A stretch of DNA of 14,672 nt. It comes from Eutypella sp. D-1. Taxonomy: Eukaryota; Ascomycota; Sordariomycetes; Xylariales; Diatrypaceae. Position numbers and translations under genes: made by a program. Positions 1 to 14,489 of the stretch are shown here, piece after piece. The first letter of the stretch is position 1. The number at the start of each line of letters is the position of its first letter. The DNA is taken from the NCBI GenBank assembly GCA_023313575.1, contig JAJTTP010000060.1:1-14672 (forward strand), given 5' to 3'. The notes under the pieces were generated by a model. That model was not told the DNA's origin. It saw only the letters and a program-made list of their open reading frames with translations, and did not search any database.

Positions 1-113
1 TGTCATTTATTATAGCTTTTTCGGGTTTAGAATTTGGGATTGCTTTTATTCAGGCTCAAGTGTTTATTATATTAAGTTGTTCATATATAAAAGATGGATT
101 AGATCTTCATTAA
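1..113 (+). CDS. atp6: ATP synthase F0 subunit a (ATP6), 3' end only
   Basis: Only the last 36 codons lie in the window; the reading frame begins at base 3 and stops at TAA 111-113. ATP6 is the membrane subunit a of the mitochondrial F1F0 ATP synthase and forms the proton half-channels against the subunit c ring. The visible C-terminus contains the family-typical run EFGIAFIQAQVF followed by CSYIKDGLDLH and the stop. This is the conserved last transmembrane helix and tail of fungal ATP6. The gene starts upstream of the window. The frame of orf355 is open on top of this gene and continues straight past its stop, so the two may share a transcript. Identification rests on sequence recognition and is confident. 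Confidence 0.93.
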   Translation, partial: SFIIAFSGLEFGIAFIQAQVFIILSCSYIKDGLDLH

Positions 114-130
114 TTGATATTTATAATACA

Positions 131-1198
131 ATAAAAAGTTGTCTTATTTACTTTTATGAAAAAATCGCTAAACTTAATTTAGAGTGAGGTAAAACAAGCC
201 CTCCTAAACCTCATGCCTTTGTAAGTTGTCCTTTACAAAGTAGTTTTTTTTGGAATGTTATAAACAAATTTAGTGCTAAATTTTCATGGGTTAAATTAAT
301 TATTATGGCATTAGTAGGGATATTATCTTTCTATTTTAAAAATGAACTTACTGATTTACTACTTAGTTTAAGCTCTGTGGGCGTTTCACTCAATGAAGAA
401 ATTTTGGCAATTTTTATGGGTTTGATTAGTACATTAGTTTATTTATTCCGTAACTTTTTAAGTTCAATGCTTGAAGGTGTTTTTGAATGTTTTAATATTC
501 CAATAAATGGTGGCCATGTTGGTAAAATAAAAATAGATTCTAACATTAAAACTCATCTTGAAGTAAGAACAGATAAAGCAACTTCAGGTTCAAATACTGT
601 ACCAGATTCTCCAGAGATAGTGTCTAACTTGAAAAGGGAAATGGATGATTTAAGTGCTGCAAATCAACGGTTTTTAGATGTCTTCAAGTTATGAAATGAA
701 GTACCAACATTTGAAGGTCTTGACTGAAACAAACATAAAGATGCTATGGTGTTTATAAAATTACTTCAAGATCAGGCCGATATGGTTAGTAAGTGATTTA
801 TAAATAGGATGACTTGAACAGATACTGTGCTTAAGGATATAAAAATGTCTGGGGCTACTATAAATGAAATAGAGGAGTTACATCGTAAAGTTAGGGATAA
901 ACAAGATGAATATTTCGATAAAGTATCTGCATTATCAGATAAAGAGGGACGAGGTGTTGAAAGACATGCAAAAGAATTCTTTTCTTTAGCTAATGGTTTT
1001 CGTAATGACGTTAACAAGTTATTAAATAAGGGGGAAAATATAATGCATGACGGTATTAGAAAAAGTTCTTTATATAAAGATCCCGAAATAAAAAAAATAT
1101 TTAATCAATATTATCCTGAATTCAAAAAAGCATTTATCGAAGAGGATACGAAATTAAGAAAAAAATGCTCAGAATTTATAAATGCTAAAAAAGATTAA
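131..1198 (+). CDS. orf355: chimeric ORF with cox1-tail-like N-terminus, membrane segments and coiled coil
   Basis: In mitochondrial code 4 one frame is open from before base 113 to TAA 1196-1198; TGA at 185, 692, 725, 794 and 815 reads as Trp. There is no ATG before 305. ATA at 131 is the first plausible non-ATG start after the atp6 stop and gives 355 residues; starting at ATG 305 gives 297 and cuts into the first hydrophobic segment. Order of parts: a segment resembling the COX1 C-terminus (LEWGKTSPPKPHAF); a hydrophobic stretch around KLIIMALVGILSFYF; a second around ILAIFMGLISTLVYLF; then a long charged, probably coiled-coil tail rich in Lys and Glu. I recognise no homologue for the part after the cox1-like segment and assign no function. 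It looks like a membrane-anchored protein, possibly of plasmid or other mobile origin. Start and expression are uncertain. Confidence 0.6.
173..250 (+). other. cox1 3'-end-like segment in frame with orf355
   Basis: Translated in the orf355 frame, this stretch gives LNLEWGKTSPPKPHAFVSC and continues PLQSS. It closely resembles the C-terminal tail typical of fungal cytochrome c oxidase subunit 1. A related tail occurs at 2088-2165 inside the aminotransferase ORF. The host cox1 is not in the window, so it cannot be compared directly. Confidence 0.65.
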
Positions 1199-1254: not shown

Positions 1255-1282
1255 AAGGTCAATATGAAATATAATTGGTATC

Positions 1283-1684
1283 ATGGCTGTTATATTGGTA
1301 GTTGTAGGCTTAATTTTAGGTGCTTTTAATATGGAACCTGGTAAAAGGGTACCACACCAAACGGATCCCAAGTATAAGCCGGTATCATCTTCTTCATCTG
1401 GCCCTAGGAATATGGATTTACTTCCATTGGTACCGAAGGGAGGTCCACGCTTACCTGTTCTTGAACCACCTGTTCCAGATGTTGGTCCTCCTAAAAAAAT
1501 GGAAGACTATAAAAATGGAAGACTATGAAGAAGGTGGTGTCACTTATTTGGGGTAATTTACTTAGACGTTCTCATTCGACTAATTCTTTATCTTGGTAGC
1601 TTAAGGGTAAGGCTACGTCTACGCCTATGCTTCGCGGATCCAACTGATAATGGGTTCTATTCTACTAATGATTTAAAGTCTTAA
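1283..1684 (+). CDS. small proline-rich ORF with N-terminal membrane segment, C-terminus frameshifted
   Basis: The frame starts at ATG 1283 with a hydrophobic segment (VILVVVGLILGAF), followed by a Pro/Ser-rich part containing SSSSSG and VLEPPVPDVGPPKK. TGA at 1526 is Trp in code 4, so the frame formally runs to TAA 1682-1684 (133 residues), but the end after 1526 is low-complexity and includes a GC-rich repeat (about 1606-1640). A perfect 16-bp tandem duplication (1495-1510 and 1511-1526) shifts the frame. With one copy, the proline-rich frame would end at TAA 1554-1556 with a short acidic tail, giving a more natural protein. It is probably a recently damaged or altered small membrane ORF. 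I recognise no family. The size and N-terminal helix loosely recall ATP8, but I see no ATP8 motif. Confidence 0.35.
1495..1526 (+). repeat. perfect 16-bp tandem duplication
   Basis: The unit AAAAATGGAAGACTAT occurs at 1495-1510 and again at 1511-1526 with no differences. Because 16 is not a multiple of 3, it moves the proline-rich frame onto the frame that ends at TAA 1554-1556. Confidence 0.9.
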
Positions 1685-1856
1685 AAAGTGTTTGGAGTCT
1701 ACCCAATACTTTAAGAATGAAATAAAACCTTTTTTTGTTCTGCATATTTTCTGAAATAAGGTCATATGTCCGTCCTAATTTCTAAGGCGCCGTTATACTG
1801 AGCGAAATTACATATTATATAATTCAAGATTTATAATCTAAATTTGTTGAAAACAA
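1685..1856. other. intergenic spacer with a dispersed repeat
   Basis: No gene is visible. The stretch 1787-1806 (GCGCCGTTATACTGAGCGAA) recurs with two changes at 3912-3931 and so belongs to a dispersed GC-rich repeat. The 50 bases before ATG 1857 are AT-rich with no recognisable promoter. Confidence 0.5.
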
Positions 1857-2087
1857 ATGACTAACAATTACATATTTAGTGGGGTTAAAAAAAAAATAAA
1901 GAAATTGATACAAGTAGCAAAAATAATAGGTACAGGTTTAGCTACAACTGGTTTGATTGGAGCTGGAGTTGGAATAGGTGTAGTTTTTGGTGCATTAATT
2001 TTGGGATTTGTATTCAGTGAAGCCACTGGATTATTTGCCTTAATGATGGCTTTTTTGCTTTTAAGTGTTGCTTTATTTAAACAGAGT
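1857..2087 (+). other. atp9-like segment lacking the polar loop
   Basis: The translation contains [18 protein letters not shown] and then VFGALILG, typical of helix 1 of ATP synthase subunit c. It passes directly to [19 protein letters not shown], helix 2 with its essential Glu. The conserved polar loop between the helices (normally about 18 residues, containing an Arg-Asn/Gln-Pro motif) is absent. Normal subunit c has an ILG on each side of this loop, which fits deletion between repeats. Without the loop it is unlikely to work as subunit c, but it could serve as a membrane anchor. Confidence 0.8.
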
Positions 2088-3512
2088 TATCTTAGTTTAG
2101 AGTGAGCTTTAAATAGTCCACCTAAACCACATATTTTTAATTTATCATTGGAAAGTTCTTCTTTTTCCATGATGGGCCTTTTTGATGAAAGTAAGCCATA
2201 TGCTGTAGAAGGAAAAGGTATTTACATTATTACAAAGGATGGTAGGAAGGTTATAGACGGGTGTTCAGGTGCTGGTGTATCTAGTATTGGTCACAGAAAC
2301 CGCAGAGTGATTGATGCTATTACAAAACAGAACAAAACGGGTATAAGTTATCTGTCTTCATCTTGGGGTAGTAGAGTGGTCGATGATTTCTGTAAGTTTA
2401 TCATAAGAGGTACAGGAGGTAAAATGGTCAGGGTATACATCGTTAACTCAGGGTCTGAGTCAACCGAAGTTGCAATGAAGCTAGCTTATTCTTATCATCG
2501 CGAAAATAATGACCCTAGACGGATCAATATCATTTCAAGGGTGGGTTCTTATCATGGGGCTACCTTGTTACCTTTGACTATATCAGGGTTTTATGCCCGT
2601 AAACATTATTACAATGCAATACTAAATAAAGATAATTTTTATTACGTTTCCGCTTGTTACGCTTACCGTCAAAAATTAAAAGGGGAGACAGATGTGGCTT
2701 TCGTGTATAGAAAAGCAGCAGAACTGGAGGCAAAAATCCTGGAGATAGGTCCTGGTACAGTTATGGCCTTTATCCTCGAGCCTGTGGTAGGTGCAGCATT
2801 AGGATGTGCTCCTTTTGTTCCGGGTTATTTAAAGGCTATGCGGGAGGTATGTGATAAATATGGTGTACTTTTAATATATGATGAAGTTATGTGTGGTATG
2901 GGTAGGACTGGTACTATGCATGCATGACAAGCAGAAGGTGTTGGGCCTGATATTCAGACTAATGCTAAAGGGCTTGGTGGAGGATACGTCCCTATAGCGA
3001 TGGTGTTAGCCTCTAAAAAGGTTATTGATGTTATAAATAAAGGTAGTGGGGAGTTTGTCCACGGGCAGACCTATGAAGGAATGCCATCCACTGTTGCAGG
3101 TGCTCTCGAAGTTCAGAGAGTCATAAAAGATAATAAATTAGTAAAAAATGTATCCAAACAGGGGGCATATTTAGGATGATGTCTTAGAGCTGTTTTAAGT
3201 AATCACCCTAATGTTGGAGACATTAGGGGACTGGGTCTTTTCTGAGGTATAGAGTTTGTAGAAAATAAAGGGACTAAAAAACCCTTTGACCCAAAACTTG
3301 AAATTGCTAAAAGAATTGTTGACTTGGCCTTCTCACCTGAATTTAACCTAGCAATTTACTATGGGGGATTTGCAGGATATTATATCCATATAGATCGTAT
3401 TATAATTGCTCCTCCATTTATTATCAAGAAAAAGGAGGTGGATTGTATAGTGGAAATTCTATCAAAAGTAATTGAGAGAGTTTTCAATGAAGTTGGCACT
3501 AAGAGGATATAG
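1857..3512 (+). CDS. chimeric ORF: atp9-like hairpin + cox1 tail + class III aminotransferase (551 aa)
   Basis: One frame in code 4 runs from ATG 1857 to TAG 3510-3512; internal TGA (2103, 2925 and two later) falls at Trp positions. Residues 1-83 resemble ATP synthase subunit c, 78-103 the COX1 C-terminus, and about 104-551 a full-length class III PLP-dependent aminotransferase (usually about 430-460 residues). Visible aminotransferase features: NSGSES at 197-202, the ring-stacking Y232-H-G, E308 in EPVVG, D342 in the YDEV motif that contacts the pyridine nitrogen, the Schiff-base lysine K371 in NAKGLGGGY, and HGQTYEG for phosphate binding. Such enzymes move amino groups from omega- or alpha-amino donors to 2-oxo acids; the substrate cannot be told. 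Key residues are intact, so activity is plausible. Base composition looks richer in G+C than neighbouring genes, suggesting transfer from outside the organelle. TGA use shows adaptation to the mitochondrial code. Confidence 0.88.
2088..2165 (+). other. cox1 3'-end-like segment in frame between the atp9-like part and the aminotransferase
   Basis: It translates as [17 protein letters not shown] followed by a Ser-rich stretch. It shares the SLEW...SPPKPH core with the segment at 173-250, and the DNA of the two is also clearly similar (both have TTTAGAGTGAG and CCTAAACC). It resembles the COX1 C-terminal tail. Confidence 0.65.
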
Positions 3513-4265: not shown

Positions 4266-4472
4266 ATAAATAAAATTCTATTATATAGGTGAGTTTGGTG
4301 ATGGCTCTGATTGAACGCTGTCTAAATGCTTGACACATGCTAATCGGACGTTTAATTTAAATAATATTTTTATTAAAAGTGGTGTACAGGTGAGTATAGA
4401 TATCCGGCCTACCTTAAAGTGAGGGAAAGATCCCTCATAATAAAAAAAAGGGATAAAAAAAAAAATTATAAA

Positions 4473-4580
4473 AAATGATATAACAGACTATCAGAAGCAT
4501 GAAATGATATAACAGACTATCATGAAATGATATAACAGACTATCATAATTCACAGACTATCATAATTCACAGACTATCAT
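4473..4580 (+). repeat. tandem repeat expansion inside an rns variable region
   Basis: Two full 23-bp units (4501-4523, 4524-4546) follow one partial copy (about 4473-4493). Then come two 17-bp units (4547-4563, 4564-4580). All share the core ACAGACTATCA. It lies after the rns segment GAGGGAAAGATCCCTC, where SSU rRNAs vary in length. Confidence 0.9.
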
Positions 4581-5974
4581 AATTCTCTTAAGATCTGGTG
4601 TGCGAAGCGGGTTGTTTTTACATTAAACGACGTGCATCCGCTAACCATGAGAGAAAAAATGATACCCGCTTTAAGAGGACTTAAGGAGTTATCGTCGGGA
4701 TAGGTAGTTGTTAAGGTTATTACTTAACAAGCCTTAATTCTCGTAGTCGAAGCTGAAAGGTTGATCGACCACACTGGGTCTGAAAAAACCCCAGGGCAAG
4801 CGAGTACAGCAGTGGGGGATTTTGGTCACTTGTCCGCGCGACAGAACTGGCAACTTAGAGGAATGGTAGCTTCTCTAATAAGTTAGGGGGCTACAAATTG
4901 ACATATCAAATAAAGTTCTAAATGTGTAATTGATAATGACGATATGCAGATTTATGCCTTGACTAATTACGTGCCAGCAGTCGCGGTAATACGTAAGAGG
5001 CTAGTGTTATTCATCTGAAATAGGTTTAAAGGGTACTTAGACGGTAGATATTTGCCTTTTAAAAGGTACATTATCGACTAGAGTTTTATGCGAGGAGGTC
5101 GTACTTAAGGTGTAGAGATTAAATTTGTTGATACCTCGGGGACTGATAAAGGCGAAGGCAACCTCTTATGTAAAAACTGACGTTAAAGGACGAAGGCACA
5201 GAGAACAAACAGGATTAGACACCCCAGTAGTCTTTGCAGAGAATGATGAATGCTATAGGTTAGGTTAACTTGGCCTATAAATGAAAGTGTAAGCATTTCA
5301 CCTCAAGAGTAATGTGGCAACGCAGGAACTGAAAAAACGTGAGATTATTTTTATCCTAGATAGAATTATTTAGGATTAGCCACAAAAAAATATAAATTAA
5401 TAATATTCCAGTGTTGGTTCGATTCCAACTCTATAAATTTAATTTTTGTTTAGATTATTTTAAGATATTATTGAAATAACTAATAATTAGCTTAATTTTA
5501 TATTTATTATTACTTTCAGTTTACGATAGTATACCTGAAAATAGATAAAAGTCCAGAACTAGAATTCACTAGTATAAAAGTGAAGCTAACTTTTAAGGGT
5601 TCCTATAATAGGATGGATCGGATCTTTGGTACTACTGAAATATAATTAAAAATTAAGCAAATTTTACTATGTGTAGTTTAGAAGTTATACTATAGCAGTC
5701 ATTAATCTATGAAATAGTGAACGTAATTGGCCTCGGGGAGTTTGGGCATAAAACTTGACGAGGGGTAGGAACGCATACGACCTAGGACAAAGGTAATAGA
5801 CAAGAAATCCGGAGCTGATATATTAAATTTCGAAAATCAATGGAAAAATAGATATTGCAGGGAGCGTTACGGAACCTGCATTTATACTTCGCCGTAGAGA
5901 GTAATATACTACCATTGACCAGGTAGATTCTATAAGTTATCAGAAGAAGATGGCGAGGTCTCAACTGGTAGTAA

Positions 5975-6725: not shown

Positions 6726-7582
6726 GGGTTCTGTAATGAGTATGATATCATAAAGGGGAAGGATAATCCAAGTTTTATTTATCAAGTGAGTCGCGCCTTA
6801 TCTTTGATCGGCGCAACGACGCTTCGCTAACCCTCCGGGTGTAGTACGCTTCGCTACTCGTAAAATAAAAACTACATACAGTGGATAGTTATCATCACGG
6901 TAATAATAACCCTTAATTAATCAGAACTGAATCACTAGACCGTTTCTGACACCAGCAGTGAAGTATGTTATTTAATTCGATGACCCGCGAAAAACCTTAC
7001 CACAATTTGAATATAATTTGCAGAGAAAAAAAACCGTTCTTTTGGGTTTTTTTGAACTAATTAGTCAAGCTAAGAAATTAGTAGAACAAGTGTTGCACGG
7101 CTGTTTTCAGTTAATGTTGTGAAACTGCGGATCCGTCCGTGTAATTAACGAATACCCCGGCTTTATTTGTAAGATTACTAAAATAGAGCATTTTCTAGCC
7201 CGCTACAATGGTTAGGACAAAAGGGAATAAGACAAGTCATCATGGCCTTAATATTGTGGGCTATAGACGTGCCACGTAGTCCTAGACAAAGAGAAGCAAA
7301 ACTGCGAAGTCAAGCGAACCTCAGCAAAATAGGATAAAATATGGAAATGGATTGTAGCCTGAAATTCGGCTGCATGAATAAGAAATTGCTAGTAATCGTG
7401 AATCACCACGTCACGGTGAATAATACTTTGGATTGGTACTAATCACTCGTCACATGCTGAAATGAGTTAGTGCAATAAGTTTGCTCTCTTATTATAAGTA
7501 AGTAAATGATAGGATTTAGATGTTATAGTAGGATTCTTCGTATGCGCGATTCGGATTAGTGTTAAGTCGAAATACGGTTCGT

Positions 7583-7643
7583 GTAGTGGAAGTTGCACGG
7601 GATTCATAAATTTTAACCAAAAAAATAATAAAAAAAAAGCCTG
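7583..7643 (+). repeat. rns 3'-end repeat, copy A (attached to rns)
   Basis: It begins GTAGTGGAAGTTGCACGGG within the end of rns and runs through TTTTAACC, an A-rich tract and GCCTG. Copy B at 8783-8838 is identical apart from the length of the A runs. Weaker similarity continues past both copies into a T-arm-like motif (GGTTCAAATCC) and an ORF start. Confidence 0.92.
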
Positions 7644-7820
7644 GGAGAAGGAAATAAATTGTATGAATTTTATTTTGGTTCAAATCCAAAACAGGTAAAT
7701 GAAGAGATTAATTAATAAAAATATAATGATATGCGAATTTGATGTCTTTTACGCAAGAAATAAAGGCAAATTATTTAGGTTATTGGCTTCGCGTAGTAGT
7801 ATTATACGGTGTATTAGTAA

Positions 7821-8767
7821 CGTAACATTACAGATTCGTCCTCTAGCGGTTTATTTGGATTTAGCGGACAAAAAAAAACGATCTTTAGCGATAATAGGAA
7901 AAAATCGGGGGTTTATCGTTGAGTGAATACGGTGAATGGGTCTACATATATAGGAAGTGGAACAGATTTGACTAGGAGATTCCGGGATTATTTAGCACCA
8001 GAGTGATTAATTAAATAAGTTAAAAAGAATCGTAGTATTATTTATAGATCTTTATTAAAACATGGTTATAATAATTTCCGTCTTGAGATTTTAGAATATT
8101 GTGAATCATCTAAAGTTGTAGAAAGGGAACAATATTATTTGGATAAATTAAAGCCAACATATAATATTTGTAATGTGGCTGGTTCATCGTTAGGTCGTGT
8201 AATTAGAGAGGAGACACGATTAAAATTGCGAAGAGCTTGGTTAGTTAGATTATATAAAGATAGTCAAAGCAAATCAAGCCTAAGAGATTTTTCTTTAAAA
8301 TACTTGGCAGGAAAAGTTGATGAATTAGAATCAAGTTTTTCAAGATTAACCAAAAAGTTTGATAATTTAATCACCGAAAAACCAGAATTTAAGCAATCAG
8401 CTGAAACTCGTTTAAAAAAATTAGTTTCCTCTCCTACATTATATCCTGTTTTAATTATAGGTTTGAAAACAGGAGAAAGTATTAAGTACCCTTCGCTAAG
8501 GCGGAGCCTATCTAAAAAAAAAAATCCAAAATAAATTCTTAAACGAATCTATTAAAGTATTATTTCTAAATTTAGAATTTAGTTTTTGATTTTTTTTTAA
8601 GGCCTTCCTCCGTATCCCCATCGGGGATGGGGGCCCCCTCCCTAGGGGAACGGAGGTTAAGAAGAGCAGCGGATGCTTTAGGAATTAGTCCTACTAATAT
8701 TAGGAATAGGTTATCAGGTAAAACAACTAAAGCATATAAAGGAAGATACGGGTTTAAGCTGGGCTAG
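7821..8767 (+). pseudogene. GIY-YIG homing endonuclease, interrupted by a stop and by a GC-rich insertion
   Basis: In frame 0 the domain opens with SGVYRWVNTVNGSTYIGSG (GVY at 7908, YIG at 7947) followed by DLTRRFRDYLAPEW. It then meets TAA at 8016 and continues in the same frame with KHGYNNFRLEILEYCES, EREQYYLDKLKPTYNI and a NUMOD3-like helix (EETRLKLRRAW), ending at TAA 8532. A GC-rich palindromic element follows. At 8657 another frame gives LRRAADALGISPTNIRNRL and ends KGRYGFKLG at TAG 8765, the NUMOD1-type helix-turn-helix that normally closes such proteins. The catalytic-domain residues (GIY, YIG, conserved Arg, the Glu of EREQ) are present. The internal stop, an unclear N-terminus and the insertion make it a pseudogene. 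It sits between two copies of the rns 3' end, as expected for a free-standing mobile gene. Confidence 0.8.
8493..8656 (+). mobile_element. GC-rich palindromic element inserted in the GIY-YIG gene
   Basis: The element starts near the repeat word CTTCGCTAAGGCGGAGCCTA, has an AT-rich middle, and ends with a nested GC palindrome. CCTCCGT 8607-8613 pairs with ACGGAGG 8650-8656, enclosing ATCCCCATCGGGGAT and the palindromes GGGGGCCCCC and CCCTAGGG. The endonuclease frame resumes at the next base, 8657. Both flanks encode LRR, so part of the junction may be duplicated. It resembles the double-hairpin elements of fungal mitochondria. Confidence 0.65.
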
Positions 8768-8782
8768 TAACCCTCCTAGATG

Positions 8783-8838
8783 GTAGTGGAAGTTGCACGG
8801 GATTCATAAATTTTAACCAAAAATAATAAAAAAGCCTG
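8783..8838 (+). repeat. rns 3'-end repeat, copy B (downstream of the GIY-YIG gene)
   Basis: It starts 15 bases after the GIY-YIG stop and reproduces the last ~30 bases of rns plus flanking sequence, as in copy A at 7583-7643. No rRNA body precedes it. It marks either the original downstream flank or a replacement tail brought by the mobile gene. Confidence 0.92.
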
Positions 8839-8902
8839 TAGCAAGGTGCTTATGTTCTGGACCTTAATACTTTTTATTTCTGGTTCAAATCCGGAGCAGG
8901 TT
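8833..8902 (+). other. tRNA-like fold after rns-tail copy B
   Basis: AGCCTGT 8833-8839 can pair over 7 bp with GCAGGTT 8896-8902, and TCTGG-TTCAAAT-CCGGA 8879-8895 forms a proper T arm. The middle does not give a normal D arm or anticodon loop. Copy A keeps only the T-arm motif and part of the acceptor. It is probably a decayed tRNA or a processing signal. Confidence 0.3.
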
Positions 8903-8991
8903 TATGAAAAATAGAGATTTAAGGATTAAATGGGAATTTCACACCTTTTACGCAATAAATAAGGGGTCGCTTCGCTAATCCAAAGGATAAT

Positions 8992-10005: not shown

Positions 10006-10128
10006 CTAAGAACCAAAAAATCCGCTTCGCATAGTGATACATCGAATAAAGGTCTTCCATAACCATCTGGTAAAATTTTACCAGGAGCGAAGCGTCTTAT
10101 ATTTTACTTTTTATTTTTTTTTAACCGC
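10002..10128 (+). repeat. dispersed repeat type 2, copy 1
   Basis: It runs from GGGACTA through ATCCGCTTCGCATAGT, AAAGGTCTTCCATA, the palindrome GGTAAAATTTTACC and GGAGCGAAGCGTCTTATATT to AACCGC. A copy with few differences lies at 12378-12497. CGCTTCG and CGAAGCG in the two halves can pair, making a nested hairpin. Confidence 0.9.
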
Positions 10129-10754: not shown

Positions 10755-11338
10755 GCTTATTAGCAATTAATGGATAAAGTATTTTGTTTTTAGTGCACCT
10801 TTAAGGTTATTAATTGATAAAAAGTTTTATGGTTTTATTATCCTTAGTTCTGTAAGCCTACGGTCTAGATAATTGTTTTAAACCCCCGCTGCATCCCTAC
10901 TGCGGGGGTTTAGTAAATTTATTGAGTTTTTTGAATATGTTTAATATAGTAAAAATGCTTTATTGAGAGTATGAAAAAAAATAAAATTTAGGCTCTAAAC
11001 TCGTGCGTGCATACTTCGTAAGCCAGAAAATATGTGAATATTCTGAATAAATTCAGGGTGCAGATCCTACAATTATTAGATTTTGAATCTCTCGTGGCTA
11101 AGGCTAAGGCTATGCCTAAGCCTACAAAGATTAAATTACCCTAAATCTTTAGTATCACCGTTAAAGAATCAAAATAGCCAAATCAAAAAATATACACATG
11201 TTAAATAAAAAACCAAATACTTATAAGATTATAACCTTTATACTATGCATGTGCACTATCTTCAAGAATAATCTGAATGGATGCACGATAATCTTATGAA
11301 AAAGGATGAAAGCGGAAAAAAATGAAAAAAAGAGCTTT
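10755..11338. other. long intergenic spacer after trnD
   Basis: About 580 bases with no ORF or convincing tRNA. It holds the C/G hairpin at 10879-10912 and an imperfect inverted repeat, AGGCTAAGGC-TAT-GCCTAAGCCT, near 11106. It ends at a type 1 GC-rich repeat (11339). Confidence 0.5.
10879..10912 (+). repeat. C5/G5 hairpin element, copy 1
   Basis: TAAACCCCCGC (10879-10889) pairs perfectly with GCGGGGGTTTA (10902-10912) around a 12-nt loop TGCATCCCTACT. The copy at 14446-14477 has the same stem and nearly the same loop; 14271-14300 has a variant. Confidence 0.88.
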
Positions 11339-12377: not shown

Positions 12378-12497
12378 GGGACTAAAAAAAAAATCCGCTT
12401 CGCATAGTAATATATCAAATAAAGGTCTTCCATATCCCTCTGGTAAAATTTTACCAGGAGCGAAGCGTCTTATATTTTACTTTTTATTTTTAACCGC
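12378..12497 (+). repeat. dispersed repeat type 2, copy 2
   Basis: It is nearly identical to 10002-10128: ATCCGCTTCGCATAGT, AAAGGTCTTCCATA, GGTAAAATTTTACC, GGAGCGAAGCGTC, an AT-rich tail and AACCGC. Differences are single bases and A/T run lengths. Confidence 0.9.
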
Positions 12498-12993: not shown

Positions 12994-13031
12994 TCGTATT
13001 GCTTTCATTTTAAAACTTAATATACTTTTTT

Positions 13032-13102
13032 AAGAGTATAGTTTAAAGGTAAAATAGGGAGCTTCAACCTCCAAATTCTCAGTTCAAATCTGAGTACTCT
13101 TG
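13032..13102 (+). tRNA. trnW: tRNA-Trp (UCA)
   Basis: Acceptor AAGAGTA pairs exactly with TACTCTT; D arm with GTTTAAAGGTAAAAT; anticodon stem GGAG/CTCC around CTTCAAC gives TCA; T arm CTCAG-TTCAAAT-CTGAG; discriminator G. A UCA anticodon reads both UGG and UGA as Trp, direct support for translating this window with code 4. nad6 begins 47 bases downstream. Confidence 0.94.
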
Positions 13103-13148
13103 TAATTCATCCTTTACGAGGGTAAAGATAGTTTAAAAAATAAAAATT

Positions 13149-14245: not shown

Positions 14246-14270
14246 AAAAAAAATAAAAAAAGAAAATCTT

Positions 14271-14300
14271 AACCCCCGCTGCCCTCTTACAGCGGGGGTT
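14271..14300 (+). repeat. C5/G5 hairpin element, variant
   Basis: AACCCCCGCTG (14271-14281) pairs with CAGCGGGGGTT (14290-14300) around CCCTCTTA. It lies 26 bases after the stop of the LAGLIDADG pseudogene. Confidence 0.87.
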
Positions 14301-14350
14301 TAAGTATTATATAAAATTAATAGTTCAATTTAATTTCAAGTAGACACGCA

Positions 14351-14409: not shown

Positions 14410-14489
14410 ATGATCCTACTTCAAGGAGTCGTCTAGGCTGCCTCCAAACCCCCGCTGCATCCTTACTGCGGGGGTTTAAGAAGGATCAT
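14410..14489 (+). mobile_element. nested hairpin element upstream of the second nad6-intron ORF
   Basis: Outer arms ATGATCCT (14410-14417) and AGGATCAT (14482-14489) pair perfectly. Inside, AAACCCCCGC (14446-14455) pairs with GCGGGGGTTT (14468-14477) around TGCATCCTTACT, nearly the loop of the element at 10879-10912. The paired structure resembles a double-hairpin element inserted at the start of a LAGLIDADG reading frame. Confidence 0.65.

Follow-up and report, generated by a model that had tools for sequence, protein, structure and literature searches.

A class III aminotransferase gene fused behind atp9- and cox1-derived pieces in the mitochondrial DNA of Eutypella sp. D-1

The mitochondrial DNA (mtDNA) of the ascomycete Eutypella sp. 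D-1 contains a gene in which a class III aminotransferase (AT) stands in frame behind pieces of atp9 and cox1. It lies in the 14,672-nucleotide stretch analysed here (contig JAJTTP010000060.1 of assembly GCA_023313575.1, hereafter the window), where an open reading frame (ORF) of 551 codons plus stop, read in genetic code 4, occupies positions 1857 to 3512 of the forward strand. In this single frame an Atp9-derived hairpin (1857-2062), the C-terminal tail of COX1 (2077-2132) and a complete class III AT (domain at 2202-3473) follow one another, as an earlier reading of the sequence (the original prediction) had described, and all three parts are confirmed. We put at about 55% the probability that this is a selected class III AT gene of fungal origin, expressed as a chimera at the atp6-rns locus and displayed on a membrane.

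The origin of the first two parts is established by DNA matches to other mitochondrial contigs of the same genome. A 737-bp stretch (1270-2006, forward strand) begins 587 bp ahead of the ORF and runs through its first 150 bp; it duplicates the 5' flank and opening portion of the genuine atp9 gene (C36:22211-22947) with 99.05% identity, and positions 1998-2062 match the second half of that gene at 98.5%. The two blastn matches overlap by 9 bases, at the 9-mer ATTTTGGGA (1998-2006), which genuine atp9 has twice; the 54 bp between its copies, corresponding to the polar loop, are missing from the header and the frame is kept. The header thus comprises an N-terminal extension and a pair of helices that lack this loop. 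The subunit-c-like hairpin of the original prediction is therefore clearly of Atp9 origin at the DNA level, but it is no longer a subunit c, its polar loop having been deleted and no Pfam match rising above the cut-off. The usual atp9 start codon is TTG in the header, and the next in-frame ATG upstream is the one at 1857. Near the end of the atp9 piece the sequence switches into the cox1 tail, which matches the genuine cox1 3' end at 80.7% over 57 bp (E 4.5e-7) and is also recognized by motif comparison. GC content at third codon positions rises from 0.17 over the first 100 codons to 0.29 within the AT, as expected of parts with different origins. AlphaFold places helices at residues 7-48 and 56-86 of the header, with low confidence.

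The third part matches Pfam Aminotran_3 (PF00202) over residues 116-539 (E 1.5e-78, 264.7 bits against a cut-off of 30.5), covering positions 13-403 of the 403 in the profile. Residues G199, S200, Y232, H233, G234, E308, D342, E343, K371 (codon 2967-2969), T405 and R457 are identical in 54/54 aligned sequences, which bears out the prediction of intact catalytic residues; among them we take K371 to be the lysine that binds pyridoxal phosphate (PLP), D342 the aspartate facing the PLP ring and Y232-H-G the aromatic-His-Gly motif. By homology and structural model, the enzyme is a class III AT of PLP fold type I, omega-aminotransferase-like. It scores 469.1 bits with NCBIfam NF005685 (aspartate aminotransferase family protein), under the cut-off of 485, and shares about 35% sequence identity with the class III AT of Deinococcus radiodurans (3i4j); unlike the window AT, these bacterial class III ATs have no membrane piece in front.

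A second AT gene, referred to as locus B, lies in the same mtDNA (C36:23934-25268) and is 51% identical to the window AT. It sits downstream of genuine atp9 and upstream of a cox2 exon, in the order atp9-AT-cox2, within a frame of 735 codons that is open from just past the atp9 stop and encodes four predicted membrane stretches before the AT; its start is uncertain because there is no obvious ATG near the beginning of the frame. Published systems are compared here from excerpts of the papers cited. In Annulohypoxylon stygium mtDNA, the interval from atp9 to cox2 has been described as holding a class III AT gene and that from atp6 to rns an AAT_I fragment, in all six isolates (PMC6140425). The two Eutypella genes, encoded in mtDNA and read in code 4, occupy the same two positions, but the atp6-rns copy of the window, a fragment in A. 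stygium, is complete and stands behind an atp9/cox1 header, a fusion of which the available excerpts of PMC6140425 make no mention. The N-terminus of locus B, with its several helices, is shared with an A. stygium relative (46% over 81% of residues 1-300). A standalone mitochondrial AT of Pestalotiopsis fici is cited in a review (PMC11277600), while in the excerpts of two further papers aminotransferases are merely mentioned among the proteins that mitochondrial introns may encode (PMC8393795; PMC7902536). The novelty of a mitochondrial AT as such is not supported, since class III ATs had been reported from A. stygium and P. fici. An AT behind an atp9/cox1 header, however, was not found described in a literature search that covered titles, abstract openings and selected passages, with few subscription papers.

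The two mitochondrial copies also allow selection to be estimated. Over 444 codons, dN between the window AT and locus B is 0.41 and dS is 1.60, a ratio of 0.26, with synonymous sites near saturation in this comparison; the past selection that had been proposed for the frame is thereby supported. Changes private to the window AT, as compared with P0003-P0008 (P-numbers denote database proteins gathered here, P0001 being the window fusion protein), fall at 0/59 sites of the highest conservation class versus 19/161 other sites (Fisher p 0.0025). A dN/dS of about 0.26, taken with the absence of recent changes from the highest conservation class, suggests that the enzyme works. Residues 83, 357, 441 and 463 of the fusion ORF are tryptophans encoded by TGA; W357 and W463 are positions where at least 90% of family members have tryptophan, which shows that the gene's drift took place under the mitochondrial code.

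Junctions of this kind recur in other sequences. Relatives of the AT region were drawn from the best 120 of 7118 proteins with E <= 0.001, among 8000 candidates scored. P0002 is 99% identical and shares the header from the hairpin on, its first stretch being different. In P0003 (73%) the AT is preceded by an atp6-like end and a cox1 tail, in P0004 (72%) by a 12-residue atp9-like start, in P0015 by a nad4L piece, and in P0017 and P0037 by a nad5 piece. Unnamed database proteins thus join ATs to pieces of nad4L, nad5, atp6 and atp9, and the atp9/cox1-tail header also precedes unrelated ORFs: a search with the header by itself recovered 26 proteins (E <= 1) out of 748 candidates, and 5/26 have an AT domain. 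In the whole collection, the cox1-tail pattern occurs in 11/146 proteins, the window's own included, namely six ATs (P0001, P0002, P0003, P0097, P0108, P0125) and five other ORFs (P0123, P0128, P0129, P0131, P0143), and the atp9-start pattern in 18/146, seven of them ATs (P0001, P0002, P0004, P0097, P0125, P0132, P0142). Because the 146 proteins were gathered by AT and header searches, these counts speak for recurrence and not for frequency. In P0143, the COX1 C-terminus continues in frame into a further ORF, which would fit the cox1 3' end as a first landing place.

Descent was followed in a tree of 33 rows, whose groups were chosen after a larger first tree was known and which omits 21 unassigned rows, P0014, P0048, P0106, P0120, the genome's own nuclear gene and 8/12 bacteria. 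The window AT groups with P0003 and P0004 at 100/100, and locus B with P0098 and the 768-residue A. stygium protein P0122 at 100/100; the two groups join at 90/93, a node that is not starred. Only P0099 and P0112 (Apiospora) are labelled '(mitochondrion)' by their source. P0003, P0015, P0017 and P0037 were called mitochondrial for their mitochondrial-gene pieces, P0004 for its short atp9-like start, P0098 as a near-copy of locus B (93%), P0122 via the A. stygium paper and P0033 (Juglanconis) by assumption, and rows were called nuclear when on contigs of 379 kb to 8.2 Mb. With these labels, a single clade of the 12 mitochondrial or presumed mitochondrial rows is absent from the tree yet not rejected by the approximately unbiased (AU) test (p 0.07), and a single clade of the 15 rows labelled nuclear is rejected (AU p 0.011), since two copies from Diaporthe group with the Apiospora mitochondrial copies. 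Repeated transfers of the family between nucleus and mtDNA are thus probable, as judged from these sequences, and either direction is possible. Direct bacterial transfer into the locus is not favoured: the 12 sampled bacterial rows, picked from the best 80 of at least 577 loci, are separated as one group, with support 100, from all 56 fungal or unassigned rows, and among the matches listed identity is about 40-46% for the nearest bacterial loci and 73% or more for the closest fungal ones. Scanning IMG/VR with P0001 gave 2 pattern matches and no relative, and the matches in plasmid records all stayed below 60% identity.

We infer the following order of events. The AT would first have been linked to a cox1 copy at the latter's 3' end; later, the duplicated atp9 5' flank and initial codons would have come to stand in front of both, and loss of 54 bp in frame between the 9-bp repeats would have eliminated the polar loop. 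The captured atp9 leader, already used by the organelle, may supply the signals for transcription and organelle translation. The two Atp9-derived helices are predicted to be inserted co-translationally in the inner membrane, with the cox1 tail as a linker and the AT displayed on one membrane face, where it would dimerise and work with PLP.

The window corresponds to contig C57 of a 48.5-Mb, 72-contig assembly and contains rns, tRNAs and nad6. To the left of the fusion ORF, positions 3-113 (forward strand) encode the 3' end of atp6 with its stop, 36 residues matching the end of ATP-synt_A with E 5.2e-6, below the Pfam cut-off, the frame being set by eye; to the right lies rns, in two pieces on the forward strand (4283-5355 and 6878-7614). 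The locus is thereby fixed as atp6-AT-rns. Two longer mitochondrial contigs, C33 and C37, overlap the window over its whole length at 99.8%, with zero nucleotide differences in the fusion ORF among the three. The overlapping contigs C33, C38 and C36 bring the summed mtDNA to about 166 kb, and the merged sequence used here is 135,913 bp. Fungal nuclear relatives of the AT do exist, including a more distant one with introns in the nuclear contig C1 of the same genome, and a nuclear insertion had been named as one of the findings that would overturn the original prediction. The mitochondrial gene content and the two enclosing contigs, which hold the ORF unchanged, rule it out at the assembly level, and P0002, a separate record, has identical junctions; we regard nuclear insertion and assembly chimera alike as very improbable.

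Less easily dismissed, if still rather doubtful in our view, is that the product is a soluble enzyme started at Met105 or Met106, the header being an upstream relic that perhaps serves as promoter or ribosome access. Either methionine could be an internal AT start: other ATs of the family start shortly after them, P0005 has its initial M at the matching place (MGSFNKKRL...), and the Apiospora copies with a mitochondrial annotation (P0112, P0099) lack any N-terminal extension. Against this, the upstream frame is open across all junctions, the 54-bp in-frame deletion included, in-frame upstream membrane pieces recur in P0003, P0015, P0017, P0097, P0125 and P0142, and locus B and its A. stygium relative have conserved their N-terminus of several helices. 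The gene may also be a decaying insertion whose ancestor worked, the present chimera being an unused recombination by-product. This would agree with the state of the A. stygium copy at the same position, only a fragment (PMC6140425, excerpts), and with private changes at conserved sites, which are no rarer at 90-98% conserved sites (6/53) than at less conserved ones (4/19, 3/31, 6/58; 13/108), so that constraint is visible only at the strictest sites. Decay is nevertheless unlikely given 551 codons without stop or frameshift, TGA at conserved tryptophan positions, the low dN/dS and the absence of private changes at the most conserved sites.

Besides the possible internal start, the A. stygium fragment, the near-saturated synonymous sites and the narrow range of visible constraint, several observations count against a membrane-displayed chimera. 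The evidence is at sequence level. Pfam ATP-synt_C scores only 13.6 bits on the header (residues 24-68), below the cut-off of 24, and the structural model of the header is weak, with an AlphaFold pLDDT (per-residue confidence) mostly <60 up to residue 60. A search with a promoter consensus gave 22 matches versus 23.2 expected, hence no excess. In the enzyme itself, A239P is a change at a conserved site, and the window AT and its kin P0003-P0005 are without one residue of a conserved F-W motif.

Hybrid genes are known from other fungal mtDNAs. In Glomus (atp6, atp9, cox2, nad3) and in Allomyces (atp6), they were made by mobile ORFs, and those of Glomus are transcribed (PMC3630166, excerpts). 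As in these hybrids, 3' ends of respiratory genes have been duplicated in Eutypella and joined in phase with a following ORF, within the single frame 1857-3512. The hybrids described in those excerpts, however, carry a homing endonuclease and receive the inserted C-terminus from the gene entered, whereas the cargo of the window is an AT, with no endonuclease found by Pfam in P0001, and its cox1 tail stands behind an atp9 piece. As neither the endonuclease nor the gene's own C-terminus is found, the gene is placed with the ascomycete mitochondrial class III ATs instead. A broader proposal, which we make tentatively, is that genes are made in a modular way in the mtDNA of filamentous ascomycetes, a leader and membrane piece of atp9, atp6, nad4L or nad5, often with a cox1 tail, being set before changing cargo, and that class III ATs have repeatedly been kept as membrane-bound enzymes encoded, translated and used in the organelle.

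Organelles are generally said to lose genes to the nucleus; a metabolic enzyme gene in mtDNA, present as two diverged copies, contrasts with this trend, and the rejection of the 15 nuclear rows as one clade hints at traffic between mtDNA and nucleus in the AT family. If the chimeras are translated, a newcomer gene would have come to be expressed, in an organelle whose translation relies on gene-specific leaders, by capturing the leader of a resident gene.

Other ORFs of this mtDNA have a chimeric look. An open frame at 2-1198 (forward strand), overlapping the atp6 end out of frame, holds another piece resembling the cox1 tail (197-238), after which comes a cargo with no Pfam match, and is 43% identical over 193 residues to P0128, a protein made of atp9, cox1 tail and cargo. 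At its 3' end (C37:7602-7682 and downstream) the genuine cox1 gene extends beyond its usual end (…PVQSSIFTWDNIKKGLPLKMWWWV, stop), and a 341-codon frame in another phase overlaps it, another ORF hanging on the cox1 3' end; its pairwise alignment with ORF 2-1198 scores weakly (69) and no kinship is claimed.

Elsewhere in the window, the 3' end of rns and the stretch that follows it are duplicated (7583-7766 and 8783-8965; identity 70.6% across 197 alignment columns and 92% in the first 51 nt). The copies flank an ORF at 8139-8534 with a GIY-YIG match below threshold (17.4 bits, cut-off 22.6), an arrangement suggestive of a mobile element that has duplicated the 3' end. A direct repeat of 104 nt, 95% identical, lies at 10015-10118 and 12388-12491, and a GC-rich palindrome (CCCCCGCTGC...GCGGGGG) occurs three times outside the fusion ORF (10880-10912, 14270-14302 and 14446-14478, 82-97% alike). 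The tRNA called tRNA-SeC (tca) by ARAGORN at 13031-13103 is presumably tRNA-Trp(UCA), the reader of TGA in a code-4 genome.
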